Origin: Tetracentron sinense
Lineage: Eukaryota > Streptophyta > Magnoliopsida > Trochodendrales > Trochodendraceae
Length of the DNA stretch: 64,000 nt
Direction: 5' to 3'
NCBI GenBank assembly: GCA_015143295.1
Contig: JABCRI010001139.1
Coordinates: forward strand, 1 to 64,000
Shown here one piece after another: positions 4,501 to 50,455 of this stretch. Position 1 is the stretch's first letter; each line of letters opens with the position of its first letter. The position numbers were made by a program, and so were the translations under genes. The notes beneath the pieces were generated by a model, which did not search any database, had not been told where the DNA came from, and saw only the letters and a list, made by a program, of their open reading frames with translations.

Positions 4501-4853
4501 AGCTTAGTCCTCGCTATGTTGGACCGTTTGAGATTATCACGCGGGTTGGTGAAGTTGCTTATCGAGTAGCTCTCCCACCTCACATGGCCGCGGTTCACAA
4601 CGTTTTCCACGTGTCTATGCTTCGAAAGTACATTGCGGACCCTTCGCATATACTAGAATTGGAACCGTTGGAAATTCGAGAAGATCTCACGTTGGTTGAG
4701 AAGCCGATTCACATATTGGATCGGAGAGATCAAGTGCTTCGCAACAAGACAATCCCTTTGGTTCTTGTGCAATGGAAACACCATGCTCGGGAAGAAGCTA
4801 CATGGGAGCGTGAAGCCGAAGTCAAAGCGAAGTACCCGGAATTGTTTGAATGA
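1528..4853 (+). CDS. Pol polyprotein of E1 (protease, RT, RNase H, integrase, chromodomain)
   Basis: Open from the predicted 3' splice site to the stop at 4851-4853. There is no ATG at the protease start, which fits translation as a Gag-Pol fusion from spliced RNA. Counting from the TTG codon at 1551: aspartic protease motif DTGS at residues 7-10; RT catalytic FVDD at about 323-326; RNase H with YSDAS near 470; integrase HHCC zinc finger at about 685-726 (ends CLVC); integrase core with MDF near 756, SDRDPRF near 816 and TDGQTERVN near 850; chromodomain in the last 50 residues (VQWKHH...EEATWE). The protein equals that of E2 and shows no damage. It would make cDNA in virus-like particles and insert it; the chromodomain usually directs insertion to heterochromatin. 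Confidence 0.93.
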
Positions 4854-5165
4854 ATTTTGTATAGGTTTTGTATATGTAGCTTGTAATATTGTTTGATTCT
4901 GTAATGCATGTCTCATCCAAATTTCGAGGACGAAATTTTTGTAAGGGGGGAAGGATGTAGAGCCCCGGACCTTTTCACATTTATGCATGACCCTTCGTAG
5001 CCATTTTTCCTTTAAAGTAATGCAATTAATAAATAAGGAAGAAATTGGAAATTCCGAAACGTCAGAAATGTTCGTTTTCGAAGTACGAACCCAACGCAAG
5101 TTGAATCGTCAAAATCGGACGAACGAGTCAAAAGTTATGGCCAAAACAGTTTGGACCTGCAGACC

Positions 5166-5418
5166 ACCGATCGCTCGGTCCATGGAGCGATCGATCGGTC
5201 CAAAACCGATCGCTCGGAGGCTATCGACTGGTCAAGATTTTTGTATGGAGAAATTTTCCAGAGAGTGAAATTTTAACCGATCGCTCGGTTATGAAACCGA
5301 TCGATCGGTAGGCAACCGATCGATCGGTCATTAACACCGATCGCTCGGTCCTCGCGTTTTACAGAATTTTCACTAAGGGCATTTTCGGCATTCGGGTGTT
5401 ATACCCTTTCTTATATAG
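5166..5418 (+). promoter_or_regulatory. U3 palindrome cassette and TATA box of the E1/E2 LTR
   Basis: Seven 14-bp sites matching ACCGATCGMTCGGT start at 5166, 5186, 5205, 5276, 5296, 5315 and 5336: three, then a spacer containing TTTGTATGGAGAAATTTTCC, then four. The consensus with M = A is a perfect palindrome. A TATA box (CTTATATAGG) follows about 60 nt after the last site, so the array sits where upstream promoter elements belong. The same 3 + spacer + 4 arrangement occurs in the copia LTRs at 39313 and 49241. A protein-binding role is inferred. Confidence 0.75.
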
Positions 5419-6289
5419 GATTGCCCGAGCCTTTAGGGCTCATTCTCAACCCTTAGGAGATTTGGGAGATTAGAAGAGAGGAGAAAGGGTTCCTAAATCT
5501 AGGGTTTCTATTTTGAAGAGGAATCAAAGGGGTTTGAGACCCTAGATCATCCTCAAGCACGTTTTCCTTCAAGATCTCGGCTCAAGCTCGTGTGGGGCTC
5601 GTGTTCCAAGCTAGGGCAGCAACTCACGGTCGTTTTGGAAAGGGGGAATTCTCCCCACTTGATCAAGGTCGGTACTTCTTACTACCCTCCTAGTTATAGC
5701 TTCTCTTTCCCTTTATTTCTTCTTGTTTTCTTTCACCTATATATGTGTTATGAGATTGGTGGTATGAATGGTGAATGGAGATGGATGTTGGCGAATGGAT
5801 GCCGTGTGGATGATGTGATGAACGAATGGGAAAGGGCATGGTACTAATAATGAACATACAAGTGTGATGTGAGCATAACCCACATAGAAAAGCATGATTT
5901 AGGTTTAAGTGAATAATGAACACACCACATGTTTGATGAAATGCCAAGGTGAATAAAATAAATGATAAATTAAGGGAACCCATGTTTAATTGCTCTTGAA
6001 ATTTGTTAGGGTTCATGATAGTGTGTTTCTTGCATTTCTTAAAATGTGTAGATTATTAATTACTTAAATTGTTATATGCTATGCCTTGTGAATCACTCCA
6101 AATTGTCATATTTAATTCCAAATGCAAGTATGCACACGATCTCACGAGCACGCATGAAATGACGTGATTTACCGATGTTTTGAGTATGGGACGTAGAGGT
6201 GGGGCATATCCTAAGATATGTTTCACTTCGCTTTTGACAAGGGCAAGACAATCATGCATTGCATAGGGAAAGGTCTCCCATCCCCTCGC

Positions 6290-6565
6290 ATGACATGCAT
6301 AGCATCGCATGACACGCATAGCATAGCATGGCATGACACGCATAACATAGCATCACACATTCTGCATGGATGCTAGTTGCGACGGGCTATGAACGGCAAC
6401 TAGGCATTCACATTCTGCATGGATGCTAGTTGCGACGGGCTATGAACGGCAACTAGGCATTCACATTCTGCATGGATGCTAGTTGCGACGGGCTATGAAC
6501 GGCAACTAGGCATACCCATCTGCATATAGGGTACTAGTTGTGACGGACTATGAACGGCAATTAGG
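6290..6565 (+). repeat. Array of 53-bp hairpin units in the LTR leader
   Basis: Three units of 53 bp and a fourth, diverged one. Each contains CTAGTTGC and its exact complement GCAACTAG separated by 15 nt (arms at 6373/6396, 6426/6449, 6479/6502), so each would fold into a stem-loop in the transcript. The fourth unit (6533-6564) has arm changes that keep pairing through G-U. A CATGACACGCATAGCAT-rich stretch precedes the array. Confidence 0.8.
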
Positions 6566-6909
6566 CATGTGAACATGTTTAAATTATGAACAAGCAAGCA
6601 TGATACTCGCATGACACGCATGACATGACATGACACGCATGATATGACAAGATAAGACAACATAACAAGTTTCAAGCACGGAAATGGTATTTTCAAGTCA
6701 AGTTAAGTGCACGATGTTTTCAAGAGGTTTCATCGGCTTTCTACGAAATACAAGCATGATTATAAATTGTTTTGTTTCCTTGTATGATATAAATTGTTCA
6801 TGTTCTATATGTGCAACTTGCTTCCTCCTTTATGTATGCTATCTGTATGCTATGACTGTTGGTTAGTGCTTAGTACCCGCTGAGTATTCCATGCTCAGCC
6901 GTACTTCTG

Positions 6910-7029
6910 ATGTCGGCAGGTGACGGCGGAGCAGCTGCCCCATTTGATATCTGTGCTCCGAGTCCATGGGTGGAGGAGGAGTACGTCGAGGAGCCTTTTG
7001 AGGAACCTCCAGTTGAGGGTTACCCTTAG
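6910..7029 (+). CDS. Conserved 39-codon acidic micro-ORF in the LTR
   Basis: ATG to TAG, 39 codons, with the central motif PFDICAPSPWVEEEY followed by a run rich in Glu and Pro. The same reading frame, start and 120-nt length are kept in five of the six Tekay LTRs in this window, across two subfamilies; many differences are silent or conservative. It lies in R/U5, so it would be in the genomic RNA leader, 10 nt after a GCTGAG/CTCAGC hairpin. TGTCGGCAG|G at its start also resembles a 3' splice site, so conservation could reflect RNA rather than protein. No homologue recognised. Confidence 0.4.
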   Translation: MSAGDGGAAAPFDICAPSPWVEEEYVEEPFEEPPVEGYP

Positions 7030-7332
7030 GTGGTTGTAGATTCTGAGAGGATTAGCTGTGGGTGAGATGAGAGATTTTATCCATGTATTTTGGCGGGTCT
7101 GTCCGCACTTTCTTTTGGTTACTTTTTGTATAAACTTGGACCATATGTATATACTTAGAGGTTTGTTAGACTTCCGCTGTGTTTTATAGTTATGTTTCCG
7201 CTATAATGTCCTCTATTGTATATGCTCTGTGGGGTTTTGCAGGTTGGTTTGTCAAGCAAGTCATGTAAGTCATGATTGAGTCGTCCAAGATTCACTCTAA
7301 CTCCTAGGGTGGGTTTTGGGTCGCGACAGAAG

Positions 7333-7689: not shown

Positions 7690-8949
7690 ATGAGGCGGGG
7701 CACACGGGGTCGTGGACCACACACCAGAGCTTCATCTTCTTCTAGAGATGAGGATGAGCAGCCGGACCTCTCTCAGGTCTTAGGCTCTATTGCTGAGACA
7801 CTCGCCATCCTGGCGGCTCGGCAAACTATACCGGCATCAGCGGCACCTACTCCACCGCCCGCAGCTCCAGTACATCGTACAGCTGGAGTTGAGGCATTCA
7901 GGAGATTGAGGCCTCCATCCTTCCATGGGAGTGTGGACCCTCTCGCAGCAGAGGCGTGGATCCTCCAGATGGAGAAGATTTTTGCGGTCCTCTCGCCTAC
8001 AGAGGAGGATAGGGTAGCATGGGCAGTTTTCATGCTAGAGGGTGAAGCCCACCATTGGTGGTTGTCCGCATTGAGGACACGAGACTTGACCATGCAGGGT
8101 CAACCTTGGACTTGGGAGGAGTTTAAGGACACGTTCTATAAGAAGTATTTCCCGGTTGGAGCTCGGGAAAAGAAAGAGAGAGAATTCATCAACCTTGAGC
8201 AAGGTTCGATGTCTGTGGCTGCTTATGAGGCCAAGTTCTCGGAGCTATCACGCTTCGCGACACATATGATTGCCACCGAGGCAATGAAGGCGAGGAGGTT
8301 TGAGCAAGGGCTCAAGGATGTCATCATGGAGAAAGTGTCAGTTTTCAGGCACGCCACTTACGCCGAAGTAGTGGATAAGGCCTTATTGGTTGAGGCCAAT
8401 TCTGAAGCGGTGTCTAAGAAGAGAGAGTTGGCGAGAGGCCAAGCCAGTAGTTCAGCACCTCCAGAGAGGCGGAATCGTACCGGACCTTATCAGTATACAT
8501 GGCCAGCACCACCGATGAGGCCGACTTATGCGGCCCCAGCACCACGGCAGTACGTGCCACAGGCACCTCGACCTCAGGCTCTCCCGGCCCCATGGCCAGT
8601 TGTGCCTCAGGTGGCGAGATATGCTCCACCTCAGGCCCCTCCTACCCGCACGCACGAGCCCTGCCCTTCATGCGGCCGAAGGCACCCAGCTGGGGATTGC
8701 CTAAGAGCATCGGGTGGATGTTTTCACTGTGGTCGCCAGGGTCACGTGATCAGGGATTGCCCTACCCGGCATTTACCAGGCCAGTCTCAGGGGATTAGGC
8801 CACCAGCACGCCCAGCAGGATCATATCAGGCGTCATCTCAGACTACCCGGTCTACACCTCAGTCTCGCCAGGCGAACCAGGGGCGAGTTTTTGCCTTGAC
8901 AGAGGGTGATGCACTTGCATCTGACGATGTGGTGCAAGGTACGCGTTAG
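7690..8949 (+). CDS. Gag of E2, intact (419 aa)
   Basis: Structural protein of the virus-like particle. A Retrotrans_gag domain lies at about residues 95-190 (motifs AWILQMEKIF, HHWWLS, FKDTFYKKYFP). A proline-rich linker with repeated QAPRPQALPAP-like text follows, then two zinc knuckles near the C-terminus: CPSCGRRHPAGDC at about 324-336 and the canonical CX2CX4HX4C CFHCGRQGHVIRDC at about 345-358, expected to bind genomic RNA. The start is the ATG at 7690, the first in frame with E3 and E4. The last four codons come from the 5' end of the predicted intron; spliced RNA instead continues into pol. Copies in E1, E3 and E4 are broken, so this is the only full-length gag here. Confidence 0.93.
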   Translation: MRRGTRGRGPHTRASSSSRDEDEQPDLSQVLGSIAETLAILAARQTIPASAAPTPPPAAPVHRTAGVEAFRRLRPPSFHGSVDPLAAEAWILQMEKIFAVLSPTEEDRVAWAVFMLEGEAHHWWLSALRTRDLTMQGQPWTWEEFKDTFYKKYFPVGAREKKEREFINLEQGSMSVAAYEAKFSELSRFATHMIATEAMKARRFEQGLKDVIMEKVSVFRHATYAEVVDKALLVEANSEAVSKKRELARGQASSSAPPERRNRTGPYQYTWPAPPMRPTYAAPAPRQYVPQAPRPQALPAPWPVVPQVARYAPPQAPPTRTHEPCPSCGRRHPAGDCLRASGGCFHCGRQGHVIRDCPTRHLPGQSQGIRPPARPAGSYQASSQTTRSTPQSRQANQGRVFALTEGDALASDDVVQGTR

Positions 8950-9082: not shown

Positions 9083-12000
9083 GAACCCTACTAGTCAATG
9101 AGTATTTGGCTCGAGTGTTGATTGATACCGGGTCTACTCATTCGTTTGTCTCGCCGAGTTTTTCAGAAGGCTTTTCTGGGGAGCCAAGTCAGCTAGAACC
9201 GGAGTTAGCCATTTCGACTCCTCTTGGCAAAACAGTATTGGCAGATAAAGTGTATAGAAATGGTGTGGTCCAAGTTGGAAGCCACGAGTTGGCGGTTGAT
9301 CTCATCGTCCTTGGATTCCAAGACTTTGATGTTATATTGGGAATGGATTGGTTAGCAGCACATCATGGGCATGTAGCTTGCTTTGAGAAAATGGTACTCT
9401 TCAAGCCAGTAGAAGGAAAACCATTCCACTTTCGCGGGTTGAAAAGCAGATCTATTGCTCGTTTTGCGGCGTTGGGCGTAGCTAACCCCGAGGCAAAGGA
9501 CTCATCAACTATGCCGGTTGTGAGTGAGTTCCTGGATGTATTTCCAGAGGAGTTGCCAGGATTGCCTCCAGACAGGGAGATTGAGTTTATGATCGAGCTT
9601 GCACCAGGCACAGCTCCTGTTTGCAGGGCTCCGTATAGAATGGCCCCTATTGAACTCAAAGAGTTAAAGGCTCAGTTGGAAGAATTACAAAGCCTTGGCT
9701 TCATTCGACCAAGTGTCTCACCGTGGGGTGCCCCAGTGTTGTTTGTTAAGAAGAAAGACGGCTCGATGCGGATGTGTGTCGATTATCGGCAATTGAACAA
9801 AGTCACTATAAAGAATAGGTATCCATTGCCTAGGATTGACGACTTGTTCGATCAGTTGAAGGGAGCAAGATTTTTCTCAAAGATAGATCTTCGATCGGGT
9901 TATCACCAGTTGAAGATTAAGGTGGAAGATGTTCCCAAAACTGCTTTCAGGACTCGATATGGGCACTATGAGTTCTTGGTGATGCCTTTTGGTCTCACGA
10001 ACGCGCCGGCAGCCTTTATGGATTTGATGAACCGGGTGTTCCGACCATACCTAGATCGGTGCGTGATTGTATTTGTTGATGACATTTTGGTCTATTCCCA
10101 GACACGGGAAGATCACATACGCGACCTTCGCCTCGCATTGGAAATGTTAAGAGAGCACAAGCTATACGCCAAAATTAGCAAGTGTGAGTTTTGGTTGGAA
10201 GAGGTGGCATTCCTAGGCCACGTTGTTTCCGCGGAAGGCATCTCCGTTGATCCGAAGAAGATAGAAGCTGTTATGAGTTGGGCGAGGCCCAAGAGTGTTA
10301 CTGAGATACGCAGCTTTCTTGGGCTGGCAGGCTACTACAGGAGATTCGTAGAGGGTTTCTCTAGCCTTGCAGCACCGCTTACTTACCTGACACGGAAGAA
10401 TGCGCAGTTTGTTTGGAGCGACAAGTGTGAGATCAGTTTCACGGAACTGAAGAAGAGGCTTACTACAGCTCCTGTCCTTACAGTGCCATCCGGACCTCTT
10501 GGGTATGAGGTGTACAGTGATGCCTCACACGTTGGACTTGGATGTGTGCTTATGCAACACAAGAAGGTCATTGCCTATGCATCAAGGCAATTGAAGGAGC
10601 ATGAGAAGAATTACCCCACGCACGACTTAGAGCTTGCCGCAGTCGTGTTTGCACTCAAGATCTGGCGACATTACTTATACGGGGTGGAATTCTATGTGTA
10701 TACGGACCACAAGAGCCTCAAGTACCTCTTTTCCCAAAAGGAATTGAATCTAAGGCAACGGCGTTGGATGGAATTTCTGAAGGATTATGATTGTACCATT
10801 CAATACCATCCGGGTAAGGCAAATGTAGTGGCTGATGCTCTGAGTAGAAGACCTCAGGGGTTGTTAGCACACATGTTGGTTCAAGAATGGAAGCTACTAG
10901 AAGATTTGGCAAATCTGGACATCAGTGTGAATAACTCTGTCCGTGGTCCTACCTTGGCAAATGTTACGGTTCGGCCGTACATTATAGATTTGATCCAAGA
11001 ATATCAAGCCATGGATGCGGAATTGTTGGCTTTCCGGGACAAGGAAGTTGCCAAGGGCAGTGAAGACTTTTCTCTCACTAGTCGGGGTGCTATCACATTC
11101 AAGGGAAGACTGTGCGTCCCAGCCAATGCAGATCTTCGAAGAGAGATTTTGGACGAAGCACACCGTTCGAAGTACACAGTGCATCCAGGGGGTACGAAGA
11201 TGTACCGGAACCTCAAGAGTCACTTTTGGTGGCGGAATATGAAGAGGGAGGTTGCGGAATATGTAGCACGGTGCTTGGTGTGTCAACAGGTGAAAGCAGA
11301 ACACATGCGGCCCGCAGGTCTATTACAGTCCCTTCCGATTCCCGAGTGGAAATGGGAGAACATATCCATGGATTTCATAGTTGGCTTGCCAAAGACGGCA
11401 AGGGGTTCAGATGCGATATGGGTAGTAGTGGATCGTTTGACGAAGTCCGCTCACTTCTTGCCTTACCGAACTACTTTCAACTCTAGTCAGTTAGCTGCTT
11501 TGTACATCAAGGAAGTGGTGAGGTTGCACGGAGTGCCTGTCAGTATTGTGTCGGATCGGGATCCAAGATTCACTTCACGATTCTGGAAAAGCTTTCAGGA
11601 AGCTATGGGTTCCCGACTCGATTTCAGCACCGCTTTTCATCCACAGACAGATGGACAAACCGAGAGAGTGAACCAAGTCATTGAAGACATGCTTCGGGCT
11701 TGTATGATGGATTTCAGAGGCAGTTGGGAAGAGCATTTGCCTTTGGTTGAATTCGCCTACAATAACAGCTATCAGGCAAGTATCCAAATGGCACCATTTG
11801 AGGCCTTGTATGGGCGAAGTTGTAGGTCTCCTCTCTATTGGGATGAGGTAGGAGAAAGAAAAGTACTTGGTCCGGAGTTGATTGAGCAAACTGCTAGTAT
11901 AGTCAAGATCATCCGGGATCGGTTGAAAGCCGCTCAAGATCGCCAAAAGAGCTATGCAGACATGCGCCGCAGGGACTTGGAATTTCAAGTAGGGGATCGA

Positions 12001-12408
12001 GTCTTTGTGAAAGTATCTCCTAGCAAAGGGATTATGAGATTCGGCAAAAGAGGCAAGCTTAGTCCTCGCTATGTTGGACCGTTTGAGATTATCACGCGGG
12101 TTGGTGAAGTTGCTTATCGAGTAGCTCTCCCACCTCACATGGCCGCGGTTCACAACGTTTTCCACGTGTCTATGCTTCGAAAGTACATTGCGGACCCTTC
12201 GCATATACTAGAATTGGAACCGTTGGAAATTCGAGAAGATCTCACGTTGGTTGAGAAGCCGATTCACATATTGGATCGGAGAGATCAAGTGCTTCGCAAC
12301 AAGACAATCCCTTTGGTTCTTGTGCAATGGAAACACCATGCTCGGGAAGAAGCTACATGGGAGCGTGAAGCCGAAGTCAAAGCGAAGTACCCGGAATTGT
12401 TTGAATGA
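9083..12408 (+). CDS. Pol polyprotein of E2, intact
   Basis: Same protein as in E1 (1,100 residues from the TTG at 9106, plus the seven codons from the splice acceptor). Protease DTGS, RT FVDD, RNase H, integrase HHCC and DDE residues and the C-terminal chromodomain are all present. An in-frame TAA at 9064, inside the intron, shows the frame cannot simply extend into gag without splicing. Together with the intact gag and matching LTRs this makes E2 the best candidate for a functional copy in the window. Insertion is expected in heterochromatin because chromodomains of this clade bind modified histone H3; that is family knowledge, not visible here. Confidence 0.95.
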
Positions 12409-12510: not shown

Positions 12511-12720
12511 TGTAGAGCCCCGGACCTTTTCACATTTATGCATGACCCTTCGTAGCCATTTTTCCTTTAAAGTAATGCAATTAATAAATAAGGAAGAAAT
12601 TGGAAATTCTGAAACGTCAGAAATGTTCGTTTTCGAAGTACGAACCCAACGCAAGTTGAATCGTCAAAATCGGACGAACGAGTCAAAAGATATGGTCAAA
12701 ACAGTCCAGACATACAGAGA

Positions 12721-12973
12721 ACCGATCGCTCGGTCCAGTCAGCGATCGATCGGTCCATAACCGATCGATCGGTAGCTATCGCGCGGTCAGAAAGTTTGTA
12801 TGGGGAAATTTTCCAGAGAGTGAGTTTTTGACCGGTCGATCGGTCATAAACACCGATCGCTCGGTAGGCAACCGATCGATCGGTCATAACCACCGATCGC
12901 TCGGTCCGCGCGTTTTAGAGAATTTTCACTAAGGGCATTTTCGGCATTCGGGTGTTATACCCTTTCTTATATA
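12721..12973 (+). promoter_or_regulatory. Diverged U3 palindrome cassette and TATA box, E2 3' LTR
   Basis: Seven palindromic sites in the same 3 + 4 arrangement as at 5166-5349, but with many substitutions, changed half-sites (for example ACCGGTCGATCGGT) and a changed spacer. The site architecture is kept although the sequence is not. TATATAGG lies near 12968-12975. Confidence 0.7.
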
Positions 12974-14464
12974 GGATTGCCCGAGCCTTTAGGGCTCATT
13001 CTCAACCCTTAGAAGATTTGGGAGATTAGAAGAGAGGAGAAAGGGTTCCTAAATCTAGGGTTTCTATTTTGAAGAGGAATCAAAGGGGTTTGAGACCCTA
13101 GATCATCCTCAAGCACGTTTTCCTTCAAGATCTCGGCTCAAGCTCGTGTGGGGCTCGTGTTCCAAGCTAGGGCAGCAACTCACGGTCGTTTTGGAAAGGG
13201 GGATTTCTCCCCACTTGATCAAGGTCGGTACTTCTTACTACCCTCCTAGTTATAGCTTCTCTTTTCCTTTATTTCTTCTTGTTTTCTTTCCCATATATAT
13301 GTGTTATGAGATTGGTGGTATGAATGGTGAATGGAGATGGATGTTGGCGAATGGATGCCGTGTGGATGATGTAATGAACGAATGGGAAAGGGCATTGTAC
13401 TAATAATGAACATACAAGTGTGATGTGAGCATAACCCACATAGAAAAGCATGATCTAGGTTTAAGTGAATAATGAACACACCCCATGTTTGATGAAATGC
13501 CAAGGTGAACAAAATAAATGATAAATTAAGGGAACCATGTTTAATTGCCCTTGAAATTTGTTAGGGTTCATGATAGTGTGTTTCTTACATTTCTTAAAAT
13601 GTGTAGATTATTAATTACTTGAATTGTTATATGCTATGCCTTGTGAATCACTCCAAATTGTCATATTTAATTCCAAATGCAAGTATGCACACGATCTCAC
13701 GAGCACGCATGAAAGGACGTGATTTACCGATGTTTTGAGTATGGGACGTAGAGGTGGGGCATATCCTAAGATATGTTTCACTTCGCTTTTGACAAGGGCA
13801 AGACAATCATGCATTGTATAGGGAAAGGTCTCCCATCCCCTCGCATGACATGCATAGCATCGCATGACACGCATAGCATAGCATGGCATGACACGCATAA
13901 CATAGCATCACACATTCTGCATGGATGCTAGTTGTGACGGGCTATGAACGGCAACTAGGCATTCACATTCCGCATGGATGCTAGTTGCGACGGGCTATGA
14001 ACGGCAACTAGGCATTCACATTCTGCATGGATGCTAGTTGCGACGGGCTATGAACGGCAACTAGGCATACCCATCTGCATATAGGGTACTAGTTGTGACG
14101 GACTATGAACGGCAACTAGGCATGTGAACATGTTTAAATTATGAACAAGCAAGCATGATACTCGCATGACACGCATGACATGACATGACACGCATGATAT
14201 GACAAGATAAGACAACATAACAAGTTTCAAGCACGGAAATGGTATTTTCAAGTCAAGTCAAGTGCACGATGTTTTCAAGAGGTTTCATCGGCTTTCTACG
14301 AAATACAAGCATGATTATAAATTGTTTTGCTTCCTTGTATGATATAAATTGTTCATGTTCTATATATGCAACTTGCTTCCTCCTTTATGTATGCTATCTG
14401 TATGCTATGACTATTGGTTAGTGCTTAGTACCCGCTGAGTATTCCATGCTCAGCCGTACTTCTT

Positions 14465-14584
14465 ATGTCGGCAGGTGACGGCGGAGCAGCTGCTCCATTT
14501 GATATCTGTGCTCCGAGTCCATGGGTGGAGGAGGAGTACGTCGAGGAGCCTTTTGAGGAACCTCCAGTAGAGGGTTACCATTAG
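14465..14584 (+). CDS. LTR micro-ORF, E2 3' LTR copy
   Basis: 39 codons, identical to the copy at 6910-7029 except the last residue (His for Pro). GCC to GCT and GTT to GTA are silent changes. Same reservations: it could be an RNA-level signal. Confidence 0.4.
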   Translation: MSAGDGGAAAPFDICAPSPWVEEEYVEEPFEEPPVEGYH

Positions 14585-14913
14585 GTGGTTGTAGATTCTG
14601 AGTGGATTAGCTGTGGGTGAGATGAGAGATTATATCCATGTATTTTGGCGGGTCTGTCCGCACTTTCCTCTGGTTACTTTTTGTATAAACTTGGACCATA
14701 TGTATATACTTAGAGGTTTGTTAGACTTCCGCTGTGTTTTATAGTTATGTTTCCGCTATAATGTCCTCTATTGTATATGCTCTGTGGGTTTTTGCAGGTT
14801 GGTTTGTCAAGCAAGTCATGTAAGTCATGATTGAGTCGTCCAAGATTCACTCTAACTCCTAGGGTGGGTCTTGGGTCGCGACATTACTAAACTTGAAAAT
14901 CCACATTGGTGGT

Positions 14914-38770: not shown

Positions 38771-39312
38771 TCATTCAAGTAATTCTGGGTACTTTGCTTT
38801 GACTTCGGCTTCACGCTCCCATGTAGCTTCTTCCCGAGCATGGTGTTGCCATTGCACAAGAACCAAAGGGATTGTCTTGTTGCGAAGCACCTGATTCCTT
38901 CGATCTAAAATCCGGACTGGCTTTTCAATCAAGGTGAGGTCCTCTTGAATCTCCAACTGTTCCAAGTCTATGACATACGAAGGATCCGCAAGATATTCCG
39001 AAGCATGGACACATGGAAGACGTTATGAACTGCAGCCATGTGAGGTGGAAGAGCTACTCGATAAGCAACTTCACCAACCCGTGTGATAATCTCAAAAGGC
39101 CCAACATACCGAGGACTGAGCTTGCCTCGCTTCCCAAATCTCATGATCCCTTTGCTAGGAGATACTTTCACAAAAACTTGATCCCCTACTTGAAATTCTA
39201 AGTCCCTACGGTGTGTGTCCGCATAACTTTTCTGGCGATCTTGAGCGGCTTTCAATCGATCCCGGATGATCTTAACTGTGTTTGCAGTTTGCTCAATCAA
39301 CTCCGGACCAAG
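38771..39312 (-). pseudogene. pol of E4, C-terminal fragment with frameshift
   Basis: Continues the integrase after the copia insertion; CCAAG (39308-39312) is one copy of the insertion duplication. It ends in the chromodomain ([14 protein letters not shown]). One G is missing near 38992 relative to E3, shifting the frame before the chromodomain. Confidence 0.9.
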
Positions 39313-40541
39313 TGAAATTTATCCAGATCAATGATCTCTAAGACCTAGAGGGGGGGTGAATAGGTCTATCTAATAATTTCTAACCAATTTTAATTTTTCA
39401 ATTAATATGTTTAGAAATCAATGATTAATTCAATCAGACAATCCACACAAATCAAACACAGAAGATTTTTACGTGGAAAACCCTAACGGGAAAAAAACCA
39501 CGGGACCTTGTCCAGCAATAAACTTCACTATGAAAAGATATCAAGTACAAGACAAGACCTTACCAAAACAGAAACGACGTTCCTAGGTATAGACTCTTAC
39601 TCTTGATTTCCACGAACCAGCAGGTTCGATCTCCGCCTTAGCAGCTTCGGTTCCACACCGACCAAATCTTTTCAAGCAACTTCAAATCCACGATCACACA
39701 CGATCGATCTCCTTCCACGAAGGCTCCGGATCAAACACCGGACACACACACAAGGTGTAGGGTTGTGAATCAATTTAGTAAATTTCAAACCCTAGAGGGA
39801 TCTCATACAGATCTGAGATCACACAATGCAAGATCAAAGGTTTAGATCTCTACTTGCATTCTCTAGGATCTAAGAAAGAGGAGGGATCAACAAAGATCTA
39901 ATAAAAGCAATAAGAAAAACCCTAGAAGAGTTTCTTAGACCTCTACTCTTTCAAAAATATCAAAGACACGAATTAGGTCTCTCAAAAGTTGTTTATATAG
40001 GGTTAAAAAAAGAATCCAGAAAAAGAAAAATTATTTTTACGGGGACCGATCGATCGGTGCTCACTACCGATCGCTCGGTTCACAACGGATCGATCGGTTC
40101 TAATGACCGATCGCTCGGTTCTAAATCACCTCTTTGGAAAATTTCCCCATACAAATATTTGGTCCAGTCGATAGCCACCGATCGCTCGGTAGGCCACCGA
40201 TCGATCGGTCTCAATACCGAGCGATCGGTTGAGACAGAATTTTTGCCAAAATCATTTTCATTTTATTTTTATTTGATTCAACTAAGATCAAATAGCTTTG
40301 GTAGGCTTAAAACTATCCTCCTAGGTATTTTTAGGGTTATCCAAGTCAAATCCAACCTAGGTAGGGTCTCTAAGTCCATTACCTGTCTAGATCCGGAGTA
40401 GAAGCTTTGTCCTTCACTTTCTTCAATCTTCTTTAAGCTTTAGCTCTTCTCTTCTGACAAGTTAAACATGACTCGACGACTCGACTCAACTGACCTATCT
40501 AATGATCACGGAATTTGCCAACACCTATTTAGGGATTTACA
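39313..40541 (-). repeat. 3' LTR of the copia element
   Basis: TGTAAATCCC to AAATTTCA on -. Contains the palindrome cassette (40229-40045) and TATA box (CTATATAAAC, 40000-39991), and CTAACGGG/AAAACCCTA motifs in the R/U5 part. Confidence 0.95.
39991..40229 (-). promoter_or_regulatory. U3 palindrome cassette and TATA box, copia 3' LTR
   Basis: Seven 14-bp sites at 40216, 40196, 40177 (then a spacer), 40106, 40085, 40066 and 40045 (left ends on +). Read on -, the order is three sites, a spacer with GGCTATCGACTGG and TTTGTATGGGGAAATTTTCC, four sites, then TATA about 45 nt on. This is the arrangement and much of the text of the Tekay cassette at 5166-5349. Confidence 0.75.
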
Positions 40542-41121
40542 ATCTCCCCCTTTGGCAATTCCGGGACAAAACAAGACTAATTCATGTACTAGGTTCGAAT
40601 TTTCCCAATTGATTCAAAAATGGAAAATTGACCTTTGACCTTTACATGACTCAAAAATAATTACATGACTTTTGACATGTTAACTTGTCATGATTTACCA
40701 AACTTAGAACCTGTTTGCCTGCACATGCTAAATCATAAACCTGTGAAGCATGGGAAATAAAATATAGGATAAGAATGAAAATATGTATAACCAGTCAAAA
40801 CCATTCACAATTCCACAATTCACAATCCATAACAGGTTAGTATTCCAAAATCTCATCCATCATCCATAACGTCTATAATACAATTCCACACATTCTCCCC
40901 CTTTTTGACTCGAAATGTCAAAGGTGGATTAGTAAAGGAAAGCATAAACCATTGAAAGGAGATGAGATAGAAAATAATGAGCATAAACCATTCAAATGTA
41001 TACATCCATATCAAGTCAATAATATCCAAGTAGGTTTGTACTAAGTACAACCAAGACAAAATACATCAAAATGTCAAATAAAAACTGGCACTTGACTAAG
41101 ATAAACTCCTATCACGAACTA
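40542..41121 (-). other. Copia 3' untranslated region
   Basis: No coding signal. Holds the polypurine tract next to the LTR and a second CT-rich tract (CATTCTCCCCCTTTTTGAC near 40889). Similar text at 15282-15800. Confidence 0.7.
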
Positions 41122-42411
41122 TCACTCCTGGTCATCATCAGAAGTGAGCTGTGACTCATAGTAAGCCCGAAAATCTCGAACATCTCTCTGTACTCCTAGC
41201 ACGGCTGCATCGAGAGATCCAAGTCTACCACGAACCTCTGTAGTAAACTCCTCGTATGAAGAAATATGAGTCCGGAGATCCATCTGCATCTCTCTCATCA
41301 TCCTCCCAAGATCATCCATAGTGGTCGGTGGAGGACGAGATGACCCAACACCAACTTCTGCTCCCTCCTCTGTATCTCGAACTGAGGCATGTGAGAAACT
41401 CTGAGATAGGGTCTTTTTAGTGATTGGACCCTTAGGTACTCGAGTAGGAGCACCAGGAGGGGCAAATACCCCTTGTAAACCAAGAAGTTTAGTGATAAGA
41501 GATCCAAAAGGAAGGGCACCAACTACAGAGTCAGATCGATGAGCTTGGATCATCAAATCGATAAAATGTGCTGCAAGATCAATATCATGCCCACGAAGAA
41601 GACTGAATAGAAAACGAGCTCTTTCTTCCCTAAGGTCTGCAGTATGAACCTTTGGGTGGATATTGGCACTCATGACTAGGTTTACAAGTCTTGCATCCCT
41701 AGTGAGTTTAGACACTTCAATGAGAGAACCAACCCAAAATGAAGGAGTGCCACTTAGAAAGGTAACAACTTGTTCCATGGTTTCTTTATCCTCATCAGTC
41801 TTATATCTATAAGGATAATAAGCATTTGGAACTCGAGGACAACCAAGAATAGCAGCAATTAAATCAGGATTTATTACCACAGATTTTTCTAAAGTTTTAG
41901 TTTTGAAAGACCAAGTTTTCAAGTTGATATCAGAAAAATTGGAATAAAATTCCTGAACCAACTGAATAGGAGCTGGACATGATAGATGGAGAATACCTTC
42001 CCATTTACGATCGGTAATGAGTTTAGGAAGATAATAATCAGCAAAGTCCGAAATTTGAATTCCACGCTCAACCATGATAGCCTTCTTGCTAAAATATTCA
42101 CGGTAAAGTTGAGCAGCCGAAGGATTAATGAAAGAAGATGATAGACTGGCATGGGAAGATGAGGCTTTACCCTTGTTTTTACCAGTTTTATCAGCCAAAG
42201 CCTTTTGGCGATTCTCAGCAGTAGAATCAATGATTCTACGAATTGGTCTGTCCCCAATGGAAATACCATGCCCTATTGGAGTGAAAGTAGATGGCTCTAG
42301 GTTTTCCTCATCTTGAGGAGGATCCTCTTGGTTGTTGAGGACCAACCTCCGACGTTTGGGAACGCCAGACATGAGATAGGCAAGAAGGATTAACGACAGA
42401 ACGAAAGCCAT
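41122..42411 (-). CDS. Extra ORF of the copia element, putative plant transposon protein domain
   Basis: 429 codons from ATG 42411; a second ATG 15 codons later begins MSGVPKRRR. It sits between pol and the 3' LTR on the coding strand, the place of the extra (sometimes env-like) ORF in SIRE/Maximus elements. The middle (about residues 105-300: ERGIQISDFADYYLPKLI, LVQEFYSNFSD, DLIAAILGCPR) resembles the putative plant transposon protein family found in many plant retroelements; function unknown. The C-terminus is acidic with a possible short coiled coil. The first 14 residues (AFVLSLILLAYL) are hydrophobic and could be a signal or membrane segment, but only if the first ATG is used. No envelope-type fusion or cleavage motif is visible. 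Preceded by its own promoter-like module. Confidence 0.75.
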   Translation of the reverse strand: MAFVLSLILLAYLMSGVPKRRRLVLNNQEDPPQDEENLEPSTFTPIGHGISIGDRPIRRIIDSTAENRQKALADKTGKNKGKASSSHASLSSSFINPSAAQLYREYFSKKAIMVERGIQISDFADYYLPKLITDRKWEGILHLSCPAPIQLVQEFYSNFSDINLKTWSFKTKTLEKSVVINPDLIAAILGCPRVPNAYYPYRYKTDEDKETMEQVVTFLSGTPSFWVGSLIEVSKLTRDARLVNLVMSANIHPKVHTADLREERARFLFSLLRGHDIDLAAHFIDLMIQAHRSDSVVGALPFGSLITKLLGLQGVFAPPGAPTRVPKGPITKKTLSQSFSHASVRDTEEGAEVGVGSSRPPPTTMDDLGRMMREMQMDLRTHISSYEEFTTEVRGRLGSLDAAVLGVQRDVRDFRAYYESQLTSDDDQE

Positions 42412-42611
42412 GGAAGAAAATGCAAGAAAACAATGCCCTAGACGAGAAAATCAATCTAAATCGAAGAAAATCCACAAATCTTACCTTTTAGATGCTTGGG
42501 AAACCTTGAGAATAGAAAGGAATGACCGTTTGAAGGATTTGTAGGAGAAGGAACCGAGGGATCGCTCTGGAGGTCGGAGAACAAGTGAACAAAAAAAAAT
42601 AGAAATGAGGG

Positions 42612-42669
42612 TTTTATAACACTGTTCACGAAAGACCGATCGATCGGTCTTTAGCACCGAGCGATCGGT
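42612..42669 (-). promoter_or_regulatory. Internal promoter-like module before the copia extra ORF
   Basis: Two 14-bp sites (ACCGATCGCTCGGT at 42669-42656 and ACCGATCGATCGGT at 42648-42635 on -) followed 16 nt later by GTTATAAAAC (42620-42611), a TATA box. About 200 nt of T-rich leader with a possible splice donor AAAAGGTAAGA near 42484 leads to the ORF start. The same sites occur in the LTRs of this element. Confidence 0.65.
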
Positions 42670-42735
42670 GGTCTGAAAAATTTTAAAAAAAATTTTACAA
42701 TTAAAACCTTTTCTCCCCCTCAACCAATGGAACAT

Positions 42736-43857
42736 TGAAAATTCATTTTCACCTCAAAATGACCAACTGACCAAAAAAAATATGCAACATGTGATTTCAT
42801 AAAAATCATAAATAATAATCACCCAAGAATTGATATATCAAGTATAGACATAAACAAGGATTATGTAAACATTAATTGATTTTCACCGGTGATTAAATAT
42901 GGTATTTGCATCAAATTCACAATCAGAGTCAAGATACAATTAGAAGTAATGTGAATATGAAATAAAAATTCATTACTTGACTCTTTGAATTGGTTTCCTT
43001 CCTTGATCTAGATTTTGACATTATATTTCAAATGGGACTCTAAAATTTTTCAAAAACTAGTTTTTAAAACCAATAATCATCCATATTTATCTGATGAGCA
43101 ATTTTTACCCCATATTTGACTAATAAATTTATTTCATATCTTTTTCAGTCAAATTGTACTCATTATGAAAATTCTTTTTGGAGTACACATATATAGACAC
43201 TAGCACACTGGTGACTTTCACTCAAGTGAGAAGGTAGCTCTTTCTAATGACAGTAGGGGCTTTCACACTAGCAATCCATATAGATATCTACTGTTTGTCT
43301 AGGTAGCCATTACTCACTGTTTTCATTCACTAGTAGCTATCACACAAACTCACAGGTAGTCCTCTCCATGTCAATAATTTTTATATCTAGGGGGCTCACC
43401 TTATGGAATTTTTTATGACATTGGTTATTCTAGATTTGATTAATCTAGGGAACCATATGGTATAATATCAGAACCTTTAAATAGGAACTAAAACCATCCA
43501 AAGAATCAGTCAGAGTGCATGTGCAAATTAGAACATCATTGTATGCTCAACTCTAACTGAGGTTAATTAGCATGACCAAATTCAATCACAAGATCGAACC
43601 AACAATTGAACTATCCTATTTTATTCAATCCTATGAAATATTTATTCTTGGATTATATGGTTAAATATGATTTCAAGGAAATAACATTAAGCAAAAAGAT
43701 AGGACAAATGAGGTCATACAAACACATTATTTTTTGAATATTTTTCAATTTTTGAATGTTTTTGGATTTTGTATTACTTAAAGAAAATAACAAAAAAAAT
43801 AGCTCTATGACATAAATAAAATATGAAGAACACATAGGCTATGTAACATGTACACCA
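42736..43857 (-). other. Non-coding spacer between copia pol and the extra ORF
   Basis: About 1.1 kb, AT-rich. No frame worth calling on either strand; no array or terminal repeats noticed. Confidence 0.6.
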
Positions 43858-46800
43858 TTACTCAACTCCGCACAAACCGATGGATTTCCTAAGGAGTTCA
43901 AACCTAAGGGAATCTAAAGGTTTTGTGAGAATGTCCGCATATTGATTCTCTGTTTGGACATACTCAATAGACACAACTTTTTGCTCAACAAGATCACGGA
44001 TGAAGTGATGCCTAATGTCTATATGCTTTGTGCGAAAGTGTTGCACAGGATTTTTGGAGATATTGATTGCACTTGTGTTATCACAATACACAATCATAGT
44101 GCTTTGATCAATCCCATAATCCTTCAACATCTGTTTCATCCACAGAAGTTGGGTGCAACAACTACCAGCTGCTATATACTCAGCCTCGGCTGTAGACAGG
44201 GAAATTGAATTCTGCTTTTTGCTAAGCCAAGCAACCAAGCAGTTTCCAATATAGAAACACCCGCTGGAGGTGCTCTTCCTATCATCAGTATTTCCAGCCC
44301 AATCAGCATCGGAATACCCCACAACAATGACATTTGTATCGAAAGAATACCAGAGGCCTAAGGACATAGTTCCACTCACATAGCGAATGATACGCTTGAC
44401 AGCAACTAAGTGAGACTCTTTGGGATTTGCTTGATAACGGGCACATGCTCCAACACTAAAGGCTATGTCGGGTCTAGTAGCAGTTAGGTAGAGCAAACTA
44501 CCAATCATGCTTCTATAATTAGTCTGATCGACATCCTTCCCTGAAGTATCTTTACTAAGCTTTATAGTAGTACTCATAGGAGTCCTAGCATGCTTAGCAG
44601 AACTCATTCCAAAATTCTTCACTAGATTTTTTGCATATTTGATTTGAGATACTGAGATCCCAGAATCCAATTGCTTGATCTGAAGACCAAGGAAGAAACT
44701 TAGCTCACCAACCATGCTCATTTCAAATTCATTTTTCATTTGTTCAGCAAATGAATGAGCATGTAAGTCTAATGTGGAACCAAATACTATGTCATCAACA
44801 TATATCTGGGTGATGACAATATCACCTTTCACATTCTTTATGAAAAGGGTTCTGTCTACTCCCCCTCTCGAAAATCCGTTTTCCAAGAGATAAGTAGTCA
44901 GCCTCTCATACCAAGCTCTTGGAGCTTGCTTTAAACCATAGAGGGCCCTTTTTAGTCGATAAACTTGATCAAGGTGATGTGGATCTTCAAACCCTTTTGG
45001 TTGTTCCACATAGACTTCCTCATGTAGAATGCCATTCAGAAAGGCACTCTTAACATCCATTTGAAAAAGTTTGAATTTCATATGGCAAGCCACAGCTAGA
45101 AGAATTCTTATTGATTCTAGCCTGGCTACAGGAGCAAAAGTTTCATCGAAGTCAATACCTTCAATTTGGGTGTATCCTTGTGCAACTAACCTAGCCTTAT
45201 TTCTTATGATAGTACCTTTTTCATCAGATTTGTTCTTGAAAATCCATTTGGTACCTATCACATTTGTATTGTTAGGCCTAGGTACTAAATACCAAACATC
45301 ATTCCTAGTAAACTGAAGTAACTCTTCTTGCATTGCATTTATCCAATTATCATCTGCAAGAGCTTCAGCTACATTCTTGGGTTCAAAAGATGAAGTATAG
45401 CAAATGTAGCTAACTTCATTTTCAATTTGTTTTCTCATTCTCACTCCACTTTCAACATCACCAATTATATCAGTGGGGGTGTGAGGACTCATGACCCTAG
45501 GATGTGTAGGTTTTGATGGAGATGTTTGCTTATCAATAGGTGGTGTTGAAATAATTTCAACATTTACATTTTCAGCACTTTCATCATCCTCACGTTGCAC
45601 ATTTTCAACACCGGAGTCATCCACAACTACATTTATGGACTCCAAAATTGTAGAGGTTCTCAAGTTATACACTCGATAAGCTCTACTGTTGGTGGAATAC
45701 CCAAGAAATATCCCTTCATCACTCCGGGATTCAAATTTGCCCAGTTGCTCTCTATCCTTAAGGATATAGCATTTACTTCCGAATTCTCGAAAGTACTTGA
45801 CACTAGGTTTCTTGTTATTCCACAACTCATATGGGGTTTTCCTTGTTCCAGGTCTTACAAAAACTCTATTAACTATATAGCAAGCAGTGTGAACTGCCTC
45901 AGCCCAGAAATGAGAAGCTAGATTGTTGCTATGAAGCATAACTCTAGCCATCTCTTGGAGAACCCTGTTCTTCCTCTCTACTACACCATTCTGCTGAGGT
46001 GTAATAGGTGCAGAAAATTCATGTTTGATACCCGACTCATCACAAAAGTCGTTGTACTTAGAGTTTTCAAACTCCTTTCCATGATCACTTCGAATTCGAG
46101 TGATTGGGCATCTTTTCTCATTTTGAATTTTCAGGCAAATACTTTTGAAATTGTCAAAAGCATCGGATTTCTCTCTTATAAATGCCACCCATGACATTCT
46201 AGAGAAATCATCAACCATGACTAGGATGTATCGCTTTCCACCTAGACTTTCAGTTCTTGTAGGACCCATAAGGTCCATATGAATTAATTCCAGTGGATAT
46301 GAAGTAGCAATACTTGAAGTCTTCTTATGTGGGGTCCTAATTTGTTTACCAATTTGGCATGGCCCACACACAGCAGTAGAAGGCTTTCCTAGTTTGGGAA
46401 CACCTCTCACAAGCTCTTGCTTAGAGATTTTACATAGGTCTTTGAAGTTCATGTGACCTAGTCTTCGGTGCCACAAATCAACCTCCTCAATTCTAGTCTT
46501 ATAACAGACATTTGAGGGAATAGGACTGGGAGTTAAGCCGTAGCAATTGTCAGTGGTTCTCAATCCTTCTAGAACACACTTACCTTTACCATTAATGACT
46601 AAGCATTTATTTTGGGTAAAGTGCACAGCATGATTATCATCACAAAGTTGACTTATGCTAATTAAATTAGCTTTCAGTCCTTCAACTAACAAGGCATCTT
46701 TCAATTTAGGTATGCCTGGTGAATCGATGATACCCTTTCCTTTGACTAAAGACTTGCTTCCGTCACCAAAAGTAATAGTCCCATCAGGACAGTCCTCAAA

Positions 46801-49179
46801 TTGAATAAATAAGGACTTGTTACCTGTCATATGCCGAGAACACCCACTGTCGAAGTACCACATTTCTGTGTTTTGGGCTTTCAAGGCAGTATGAATGACA
46901 AAGCACTTAAGGTCTTCCTTTCTTACATACACAGTCTTTAAACTTTGTTTAGATCTTGGATCATTAATCTGTGTAGTAGAGACCTTTTTCCTTTTTGTCC
47001 TCCTTGACCTTTTTCTGTTTTGTTCAGTTCTAGTTTTTTTATAAATCAAATTATTTCCTCTTGAATAATCATTTGGAATAAATTGACCAGTTCTTGTTCT
47101 AGAGATTTGAGCAATTCTATTAACATCATCACTCAACATTCTAGATTTTTCAGCTAGAACCTGAATCTGCCTTTGAAGAGTCCCTTGACATTGATTTTGG
47201 TTCCATGAACCATTTCGGGGAGCTCTCCTAAATGCATTACAATTTGGTCGAATGTGACCTCTCACACCACAAAAATGACATGTGGGTATGAATCTTGGTA
47301 GAGGAGGAAGATTTCTTCTAACTGGAATTTGATTCCTTAAAGCATTCACTCTAGGAGCTGTATTTCTAGGCGTTACAAAATTTGTATAAGCCTTAGTACT
47401 TGATGTAGAAGGTAAATTTTCTTTAGGTTCAGAATGTATTGACTCAAACACTGCACTAGCCATTGTTCCAACAGCTAAAGGACCAGTTGGTGTGTCAACA
47501 TGTCCTATCCCAGATCTACTAGAATTTGATCCATATTTTCTAACTAATTCATCTAGGCAGCTAGTGTTACCAAACATTCTTACTTCTTTTTCAAGAGTAT
47601 AGACCTTCTGAATCAAGTCAGTCTTGTCTTTAAGGGTAATTTGATGTTCTTTTTCAAGAAATTTCACCTTATCAACAAGAGAAACTTTAAAAGTTTCCAG
47701 CTCCATTTGCAGAGTTCTTAACTCTTCAATTTCTTTCATGGAAGTGTCTCTTTCAACTTCTAATTTTCTGACCACATTAGTCAATGAGACATTCTCTTCC
47801 AAAAGACATTGAACTTTTATAACAAATGCTTCTTTTTCATTTTCCAACTGACTAACTAGTGCACTCTTCTCTTCTGCTACTAGTTTACAGATATCTCTTT
47901 CATTTTGAATGAGTTTGAGTTTTTTGCTCAAAGAGATTTTTGTTTTAGTCAGTTTCAAACTTTCAGCATACAACTTATCATAAGTTGTTTTCAAATCTTC
48001 ATCACTTTCAGAGTCAGTTTGACTCTTCTGTAAGTCATCACTAGACTCAGTATGAATACTCTCATCACTTCTATCCTTGTCATCAACCGCAGAGGTAGTC
48101 TCAAGAATCCCAGTAAGGGAAACAGTGAAAGCCGTATGATTTCCAGTATCTTCACTTGAAGAGGAACTGTCCGATTCTTCATTCTCGGAATCACTGTCAT
48201 CCCAACAGGCATTCATCACCTTGCCCTTACTCTTCTTCTTGTTAGGACAGTTAGGTGAAATATGACCGAAGCCATGGCATTCATAACATTGAACACCTTG
48301 GGATTTCTTGTCGCCACTTTTGGAATTTTTCTTGTTTTCCCAGGGCTTAGACTTTGACTTCTCAAAAGTTTTTCCTCCCTGTTTGGGATTAAATCTCTTT
48401 TTCGTTCTAAAAAATTTTTGAAATTTTTTAACGAAAAGAGCCATTTCTTCCTCATTCATATCTCCATCACTGTCATCCTCATCCAAAGTTTCCTTGATGG
48501 TTTTCAAGGCTAAAGATTTATTCTTCTTGGATGGACGTAGATTGAGTTCATAGGTTTGGAGTGATCCAACCAATTCCTCAATCTTCAGAGAGTCAACATT
48601 TTTACTCTCTTCGATTGCAGTGACTTTGGGTTGAAATCTCTCTGGGAGAGATCTAAGGACTTTTCTAACTATTTTGGACTCAGATATTTTCTCACCTAAA
48701 TTGAAACTAGCGTTGACAATGTCACTAAGTTTTGCATAGAATTCATCAAAAGTGTCATTGTCTTCCATGTTTAAATGTTCAAATTTGGTGGTTAACATTT
48801 GGAGTTTTGAGATTTTAACATTGGTAGTACCCTCATGGGTAATTTCAAGAATGTCCCAAGCCTCCTTTGCTGTTTCACATGAAGAAATTCGTCTGAATTC
48901 CTCAGCAGTGACTGCAGTAAAGATAGCATTGAGACCTTTAGTGTTCCATCCACTTGAATCAAGCTCTTCTCTGGTCCATTCATCAGAATATTTGACGACA
49001 GTCAAATCACCTACAGTTTTTATGGGCGTAATCCACCCATTCTGTATAGACATCCAAATTCTCTCGTCTATAGATTTGAGAAAGGCTCTCATTCTAGCTT
49101 TCCAGTATGCATAATTATTTCCATCAAAAAGTGGTGGACGAGAGACGGATCCTCCTTCTCTTAGAGTACTCATGATCAC
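43858..49179 (-). CDS. Copia Gag-Pol polyprotein, intact (1,773 aa)
   Basis: Gag part: copia-type N-terminus ([14 protein letters not shown] near residue 25, UBN2-like region to about 190), zinc knuckle [14 protein letters not shown] near 297, a long coiled coil at about 395-545, a second knuckle [14 protein letters not shown] near 632. Pol part: protease [13 protein letters not shown] near 775; integrase [10 protein letters not shown] zinc finger near 905 (with CGPCQIGKQ) and core; RT with the YVDD catalytic box near 1460 and [15 protein letters not shown] before it; RNase H with [14 protein letters not shown] and STAEAEYIA near 1670; ends GLCGVE. The very long Gag with a coiled coil and two knuckles is typical of SIRE/Maximus. 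The start could be the first or the third codon (MIM). No stops or frameshifts; likely functional. Confidence 0.95.
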
Positions 49180-49226
49180 GGATAATACAGGATCACACTT
49201 AAGGGATTAGCCTTATCAGTGAACAA

Positions 49227-49238
49227 GCTCTGATACCA
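49227..49238 (-). other. Primer binding site of the copia element
   Basis: TGGTATCAGAGC on -, two nt after the 5' LTR; complementary to initiator-Met tRNA. Confidence 0.93.
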
Positions 49239-49240
49239 AT

Positions 49241-50455
49241 TGAAATTTATCCAGATCAATGATCTCTAAGACCTAGAGGGGGGGTGAATAGGTCTATCTA
49301 ATAATTTCTAACCAATTTTAATTTTTCAATTAATATGTTTAGAAATCAATAATTAATTCAATCAGACAATCCACACAAATCAAACACAGAAGATTTTTAC
49401 GTGGAAAACCCTAACGGGAAAAAAAACCACGGGACCTTGTCCAGCAATAAACTTCACTATGAAAAGATATCAAGTACAAGACAAGACCTTACCAAAACAG
49501 AAACGACGTTCCTAGGTATGGACTCTTACTCTTGATTTCCACGAACCAGCAGGTTCGATCTCCGCCTTAGCAGCTTCGGTTCCACACCGACCAAATCTTT
49601 TCAAGCAACTTCAAATCCACGATCACACACGATCGATCTCCGGATCAAACACCGGACACACACACAAGGTGTAGGGTTGTGAATCAATTTAGTAAATTTC
49701 AAACCCTAGAGGGATCTCATACAGATCTGAGATCACACAATGCAAGATCAAAGGTTTAGATCTCTACTTGCATTCTCTAGGATCTAAGAAAGAGGAGGGA
49801 TCAACAAAGATCTAATAAAAGCAATAAGAAAAACCCTAGAAGAGTTTCTTAGACCTCCACTCTTTCAAAAATATCAAAGACACGAATTAGGTCTCTCAAA
49901 AGTTGTTTATATAGGGTTAAAAAAAGAATCCAGAAAAAGAAAAATTCTTTTTACGGGGACCGATCGATCGGTGCTCACTACCGATCGCTCGGTTCACAAC
50001 GGATCGATCGGTTCTAATGACCGATCGCTCGGTTCTAAATCACCTCTCTGGAAAATTTCCCCATACAAATATTTGGTCCAGTCGATAGCCACCGATCGCT
50101 CGGTAGGCCACCGATCGATCGGTCTCAATACCGAGCGATCGGTTGAGACAGAATTTTTGCCAAAATCATTTTCATTTTATTTTTATTTGATTCAACTAAG
50201 ATCAAATAACTTTGGTAGGCTTAAAACTATCCTCCTAGGTATTTTTAGGGTTATCTAAGTCAAATCCAACCTAGGTAGGGTCTCTAAGTCCATTACCTGT
50301 CTAGATCCGGAGTAGAAGCTTTGTCCTTCACTTTCTTCAATCTTCTTTAAGCTTTAGCTCTTCTCTTCTGACAAGTTAAACATGACTCGACGACTCGACT
50401 CAACTGACCTATCTAATGATCACGGAATTTGCCAACACCTATTTAGGGATTTACA
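49241..50455 (-). repeat. 5' LTR of the copia element (1,215 bp)
   Basis: As the 3' LTR but 14 bp shorter: a stretch present near 39715 is missing at 49640. Confidence 0.95.
49906..50143 (-). promoter_or_regulatory. U3 palindrome cassette and TATA box, copia 5' LTR
   Basis: Same seven sites and TATA box as at 40229-39991, with essentially no divergence between the two LTRs, in contrast to the E1/E2 pair. This copy would drive the element. Confidence 0.75.

Follow-up and report, generated by a model that had tools for sequence, protein, structure and literature searches.

A seven-palindrome LTR array common to a Sirevirus-type copia element and chromoviruses in Tetracentron sinense

An array of 185 bases, which consists of seven palindromes of about 14 bp and lies just upstream of a putative promoter, is found in the LTRs of two kinds of retrotransposon within the 64,000-nucleotide stretch of Tetracentron sinense DNA analysed here (the window), namely in those of Ty3/gypsy chromoviruses and in those of a Ty1/copia element of Sirevirus type. 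We consider it probable that this cassette is a proximal-promoter array of the Sirevirus repeated-motif kind that was recombined into the U3 region of a chromovirus ancestor of three LTR families, here called A, D and E. As a rule, the promoter array of an LTR retrotransposon is traced within a single family. If our reading is true, a single exchange can be enough to subject unrelated elements to common control by the host, and the phylogeny of an LTR body has to be kept apart from that of its promoter array.

The array in the window and the elements that carry it

The window contains the array in four full copies and one short copy (Table 1). With up to two mismatches allowed, the site gives 61 strand-matches in the window, compared to 0.18 expected. 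In copy A1, five of the seven sites are exactly ACCGATCGMTCGGT and two carry one mismatch; ACCGATCGATCGGT is a perfect palindrome, and the remaining site copies differ by one or two changes. The steps from site to site are 20/19/71/20/19/21 in A1 and 20/19/71/21/19/21 in A2 and both copia LTRs, and the match positions together with the step of 71 confirm the layout of three sites, a spacer and four sites that a preliminary description of this DNA had reported. The same description had claimed that the spacer matches between the two LTR types, a claim that would lose its ground if the spacers aligned no better than shuffled sequence. The central spacer of 57 bp is, however, identical at 46/57 positions between A1 and the copia copies, as against a maximum of 29/57 in 2000 dinucleotide shuffles, and its local score is 70, as against 30 or less in as many dinucleotide shuffles.

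The similarity between A1 and the copia copies ends at the first palindrome on one side and a few bases past the last one on the other, and over 200 bp of flank on each side homology is not above shuffles (150/300 and 55/300 as good). In eight comparisons per side, homology past the left edge of the cassette is not supported, with 46 to 237 of 300 shuffles equal to it, and past the right edge it is weak at best (16 to 283 of 300 shuffles). That the LTRs have no other sequence in common, as had been supposed, is hence borne out, homology being confined to the cassette. The orientation is likewise the same in both, and TATA boxes, expected about 60 and 45 nt downstream, were located by position at 62 and 45 nt. 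Over the cassette the observed-to-expected ratio of CpG is 1.6-1.9 in both LTR types, at a GC content of just 0.41-0.49.

These figures bear on convergence, in which each lineage would have built the array on its own for one common host factor. Motifs from distant Sireviruses can look alike, according to passages of PMC2829016, and a further gypsy family, F, has related palindromes elsewhere in its LTR. With a central spacer so far above the shuffle maximum and a layout equal to the base, convergence is nevertheless very improbable.

Table 1. Coordinates of the features in the window
Feature	Position	Strand	Remark
Cassette A1, seven palindromes	5166..5349	+	middle LTR of tandem type A chromovirus
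Cassette A2, seven palindromes	12721..12905	+	second type A chromovirus LTR
Cassette, Sirevirus 5' LTR, seven palindromes	49959..50143	-	
Cassette, Sirevirus 3' LTR, seven palindromes	40045..40229	-	
TATA box (by position), A1	5412..5417	+	62 nt after cassette
TATA box (by position), Sirevirus 3' LTR	39994..39999	-	45 nt after cassette
Type A chromovirus LTR (TGTAG...GACA) with A1	4956..7328	+	
Type A chromovirus LTR with A2	12511..14883	+	
Type A gag and pol ORFs	7690..8949 and 9106..12408	+	RVT_1, RNase H, Integrase_H2C2, Chromo
Type B LTR repeats in cassette slot	19096-19760; 26628-27520; 37968-38668 (-); 56595-57495 (-)		
Sirevirus-type Ty1/copia element	39307..50455	-	nested in type B chromovirus; LTRs 49235-50455 and 39307-40541
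Terminal PPT octamer AGGGGGAG, then AT/TG	40544..40551	-	
Mini-cassette, two palindromes	42635..42669	-	
Third, more degenerate palindrome near mini-cassette	42553..42566	-	
TATAAAA after mini-cassette	42612..42618	-	
Extra ORF, 429 aa	41122..42411	-	PF20167 (putative plant transposon protein)

The coding matches place the carriers in different superfamilies, as had been stated at the outset, with RVT_2 and Retrotran_gag_2 in the copia element and gag, RVP_2, RVT_1, RNase H, Integrase_H2C2 and Chromo in type A. Type A has a gypsy pol with a chromodomain and was scored as a chromovirus (Ty3/gypsy), its Chromo match (E 1.4e-4, 22.2 bits) lying under Pfam's cut-off of 25.1 bits. The type B chromovirus is about 90% identical to type A internally and lacks the cassette; the corresponding slot in its LTRs is occupied by a 25-bp tandem array, which varies in length, and by GTTGTACAAC palindromes, two or three in number and at a distance of 23 bp. 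The primer-site core TATCAGAGC is present in both type A and the copia element. Positions 1-14883 comprise two tandem type A units (1-7328 and 7552-14883) that are 98.7% identical and have the middle LTR in common, and the type A LTR contains a four-copy 53-bp tandem array at 6356-6568 and 13911-14123.

The copia element, which is 11.1 kb long and has the gag and reverse transcriptase of copia, qualifies as Sirevirus-type by the published non-coding criteria, which include the definition of the PPT octamer (in passages of Bousios et al., 2010; PMC2829016). In addition to the terminal AGGGGGAG octamer with its AT/TG at the 3' LTR, there are two in the linker, with starts at 40902 and 42720, and one in the coding part, with its start at 44866; the 5' LTR junction reads CA/ATTGG/TATCAGAGC, and a polyC integrase signal near the LTR end, judged on the C run alone, is present as seven C in both LTRs. 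The copia cassettes were correctly assigned to LTRs, but the two belong to a single element, one to its 5' LTR and the other to its 3' LTR, and do not count as independent.

The short copy of the array, the mini-cassette, lies upstream of the 429-aa ORF of the same element, where two palindromes are followed by CTTTCGTGA and TATAAAA, an arrangement that looks like a putative internal promoter. In a second copy, at locus L019, the spacer end AAATTTTCCAGA recurs in the bases before the palindrome of the mini-cassette (equalled by 2 and 0 of 300 shuffles), and in the window the resemblance of the left flank to the spacer is weaker (53 and 5 of 300 shuffles as good). The 9-nt right flank is that of chromovirus family D in two of eight comparisons (equalled by 0 and 1 of 300 shuffles), with no match to the remaining gypsy flanks in the other six. 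Judged from these flanks, the mini-cassette seems to be a cassette that has been shortened, its source being uncertain.

Occurrence in the genome and conservation of the sites

Throughout the host assembly (1.16 Gb), the pattern ACCGATCGNTCGGT is matched 52,818 times on the plus and 52,799 times on the minus strand, with A-centred sites counted on both strands, and the reversed pattern 9 and 6 times. Among the matches listed, which cover the first 9.5 Mb of contig C1, there are about 21 clusters, 20 of which were examined, one beside locus L013 being left out. All 20 lie within LTR retrotransposons (6 in family A, 10 in family D, 2 in Sirevirus LTRs, 1 in a Sirevirus mini-cassette and 1 in family F), which rules out a satellite or a simple repeat unrelated to LTRs, the second ground on which the initial interpretation might have failed. 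The cassette is not confined to Sireviruses, as it is also found in the chromovirus LTR families A, D and E. No host-gene promoter that could have been its source was found among the 20 clusters, and no host copy of the cassette among these clusters and the regions picked for unusual spacing. An independent capture of one host sequence by each lineage is hardly credible in view of clusters that all reside in LTR retrotransposons.

Family D is related to A and is called gypsy from this LTR similarity, internal matches of 68-74% being found in loci L010 and L011 only. Family E represents a further LTR context with the cassette (L026, L034), which was seen among nine regions chosen for unusual spacing and is tied to the chromoviruses by sequence beside L034 that matches the internal domain of type A at 75%. 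Family F is gypsy, with gag, protease, integrase and SH3 matches in L038. Its CGATCGATCG palindromes, four in number and degenerate, lie about 500 bp downstream of a TATA-like box and are not accompanied by the central spacer (L038:8347-8422; also L024, L036 and L037), and this different LTR position is left unexplained by a promoter role of the array. The first-spacer signature of the Sirevirus type is present in 678 and 696 copies genome-wide, often about 9.9 kb apart.

From the 33 arrays with at least three sites, 28 were aligned (11 A, 10 D, 5 copia and 2 E), five short or spacer-less ones being dropped; the damaged copy L029 was excluded from the site counts and from the second tree. Between the gypsy families and copia, identity amounts to 88-90% in the palindromes, 71-77% in the central spacer and 25-32% in the short spacers. 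The spacing is nearly constant in the 17 arrays with seven sites: steps 2, 5 and 6 are 19, 19 and 21, each in 16/17, step 1 is 20 or 21 in 16/17, step 3 is 71 in 14/17 and step 4 is 20 or 21 in 14/17. Genome-wide, site pairs are separated by a gap of 5-7 in 13,906 and 13,765 cases and by one of 8-22 in 35 and 39, counts to which both constraint and common descent contribute. A rough indel model was set aside because the central spacer is not saturated. Palindromes that are kept and short spacers that are randomised at near-fixed length would fit phased sites for a putative host factor.

Exchange within the chromoviruses and between superfamilies

Chromovirus cassettes have been replaced independently of the LTR body. 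The two adjacent type A units differ at 35/218 positions in the block 5135-5352 as against 55/7107 elsewhere. The cassette of locus L025 is 97.8% identical to that of A2, with 81.5% identity in the LTR upstream and 70% downstream, and the corresponding values for L031 and A1 are 97.6%, 89.9% and 76.6%. Locus L013 is close to A1 all along, which means that the mismatch between cassette and body is not found at every locus. A second, small cluster of 16 mismatches between the tandem type A units lies at positions 1-300 versus 7552-7851.

Between the superfamilies, transfer or recombination, as proposed in the preliminary description, is the best reading, given the superfamily difference and the homology limited to the cassette. 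In an unrooted tree the copia cassettes form one clade (bootstrap 100), and FastTree places them beside the A1 group with a support of 0.85. A hybrid of copia left flank and gypsy-type first spacer has one genome match, a Sirevirus cassette with a changed base, and a hybrid of gypsy left flank and copia-type first spacer has none, the exact patterns reaching part of the copies in either case. Since there is a single copia clade and no hybrid cassette among the copies that these patterns reach, the exchange looks old, which favours an old event and leaves ongoing exchange unsupported. The notion of a mobile module is therefore observed directly among the chromoviruses, but between the superfamilies it comes down to an old event with no sign of continuing exchange.

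With regard to the direction, other Sirevirus-like LTRs are informative. The Sirevirus junction signature, with the present copia family excluded, is found at 384 and 379 places genome-wide (13 and 18 for the control), and 20 plus-strand LTR starts among 100 listed matches were taken as a sample. The cassette site, with up to two mismatches, is present in none of these 20 LTR starts. Ten of them form two LTR clusters with other palindromes, some of them degenerate (CTCGTCGACGAG, TTCGTCGACGAA, AGACGTCGACGTCT), which are followed by TATAWA in nine of the ten; the central spacer was above shuffles in 0/10 of the other Sirevirus-like LTRs. In nine of the 20 no array is clearly recognisable, and these are perhaps not Sireviruses; the Sirevirus-like LTR of L054 has AGGGTCGACCCT twice. 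Different palindromic arrays before a TATA box are seen in the Sirevirus-like LTRs of L039, L042, L044, L049, L052, L055 and L057. A spacing of 21/71/21 in L039 was considered as cassette-like and dropped, as other copies show 21/49, 31/51 and 30/53.

Several Sirevirus-like families thus appear to have arrays with family-specific palindromes, and the chromoviruses would share the version of one family. Together with a chromovirus B that lacks the cassette, these family-specific arrays favour a transfer from Sirevirus to chromovirus, a direction that is supported, although not proven. Against it stand the greater diversity of the cassette in gypsy than in copia and the lack of a root in the tree. 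One could accordingly ask whether the cassette arose in chromoviruses and was captured by a Sirevirus, for it is found in three gypsy LTR families (A, D and E) as against the one copia family seen, and the mini-cassette has the right flank of family D in the comparisons mentioned above. However, arrays both before the TATA box and before the extra gene are a Sirevirus feature in the passages of PMC2829016, other Sirevirus-like LTRs here have arrays of their own, and type B is devoid of the cassette, so that from our point of view the opposite direction is unlikely, though far from negligible.

For the favoured transfer into a chromovirus ancestor, the simplest routes would be template switching, in the form of two switches during reverse transcription, and gene conversion among copies that are nested. 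By one of these, most likely, the array would have come into the U3 of a 3' LTR, from which reverse transcription would then copy it into both LTRs. Both progeny LTRs take their U3 from the same end of the RNA, and one swap would accordingly be passed on to the two of them. One could also imagine that the array is an autonomous promoter module, with self-complementary 14-nt sites at the 3' end of the genomic RNA that pair two RNAs or stall reverse transcription and in this way promote template switching. The cassette would then move among co-expressed elements, rarely across superfamilies, and the recipient would gain the donor's host-factor response in DNA; we give this idea little credence.

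Relation to known arrays and putative function

Sirevirus repeated motifs (RM boxes) are described in passages of PMC2829016 as palindromic and located before the TATA box in the LTR, with more of them before the envelope-like gene where present. The cassette resembles them in being palindromic, multi-copy and upstream of a TATA box. The published RM boxes are CpG-rich, and further copies of them precede an additional gene located ahead of the 3' LTR (same passages); the copia element has palindromes in both places, with the LTR cassette and with those before the extra ORF that matches PF20167. The 3' LTR and linker hold seven plus two copies, with a degenerate third in the linker, where at least eight are asked for in these passages; the core is CCG...CGG instead of CGG-CCG, which is also absent from the published Tnd-1.

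Unlike RM boxes, the same array also resides in Ty3/gypsy LTRs. The motif was called Sirevirus-specific after other Ty1/copia elements had been compared; in the passages concerned, no test of gypsy elements appears (PMC2829016). On the copia side the cassette is a described kind of feature, the Sirevirus repeated motif of these passages, and the preliminary interpretation is modified to that extent. An LTR module common to superfamilies, or Sirevirus motifs in gypsy elements, could not be found in the literature by title and start of abstract among the best-ranked matches, mostly outside subscription journals, and the motif strings led only to works titled on a bacterial TetR regulator and on human RNA. 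The copia-side array is, as such, a known kind of feature, and for the same array in three chromovirus LTR families no report was found.

Related processes have been described within families. For ONSEN, exchange between copies during replication that gives rise to recombinant LTRs is reported by Sanchez et al. (2017; PMC5668417); this takes place within one copia family, whereas the cassette spans superfamilies. In HERVH LTR7, recombination among subfamilies shuffles binding-site modules, one site of which was reporter-tested, according to Carter et al. (2022; PMC8912925). This resembles the shuffling inside the chromoviruses, but LTR7 belongs to one family of a human endogenous retrovirus, and the cassette is known from sequence alone.

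In either LTR type the array precedes a TATA box, and in shortened form it precedes the extra ORF. It may hence provide phased putative sites at which a host factor, sequence-specific and probably a dimer, acts on the TATA promoter nearby; through the mini-cassette, the same factor could also act on the extra Sirevirus ORF, by way of its putative promoter. That a dimeric plant factor binds here, as the preliminary description had suggested, is plausible. Within 180 sites, 181 pair changes are one-sided and 5 compensated; 93 of the one-sided changes fall on the central pair 6/9 and 30 on the pair 2/13, mostly as inherited variants, so that the events are not independent. Such a preponderance of one-sided changes would fit sequence-specific DNA sites better than selection for pairing.

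It has also to be considered that the palindromes might act mainly as RNA or hairpin structure, be it as source or target of small RNAs or in RNA dimerisation, and not as protein sites. As would be expected of any set of palindromes, the RNA of the cassette far exceeds shuffles in folding (z -5.4 and -6.3). Palindrome clusters in maize Sirevirus LTRs, which like the cassette lie in the LTR cis-region, although the maize families have other palindromes, are reported to show an excess of small RNAs and are cited as their targets (Bousios et al., 2016, as given in passages of a 2023 paper, PMC10760457). The pair changes, non-independent as they are, speak against a role as RNA, and fixed spacing and position before TATA boxes suit DNA sites better, which makes a mainly structural role unlikely. 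If the sites are bound as DNA, the 52,818 plus-strand copies, with their spacers randomised and their spacing kept, constitute a natural experiment from which the binding rule of the putative plant factor could be read.
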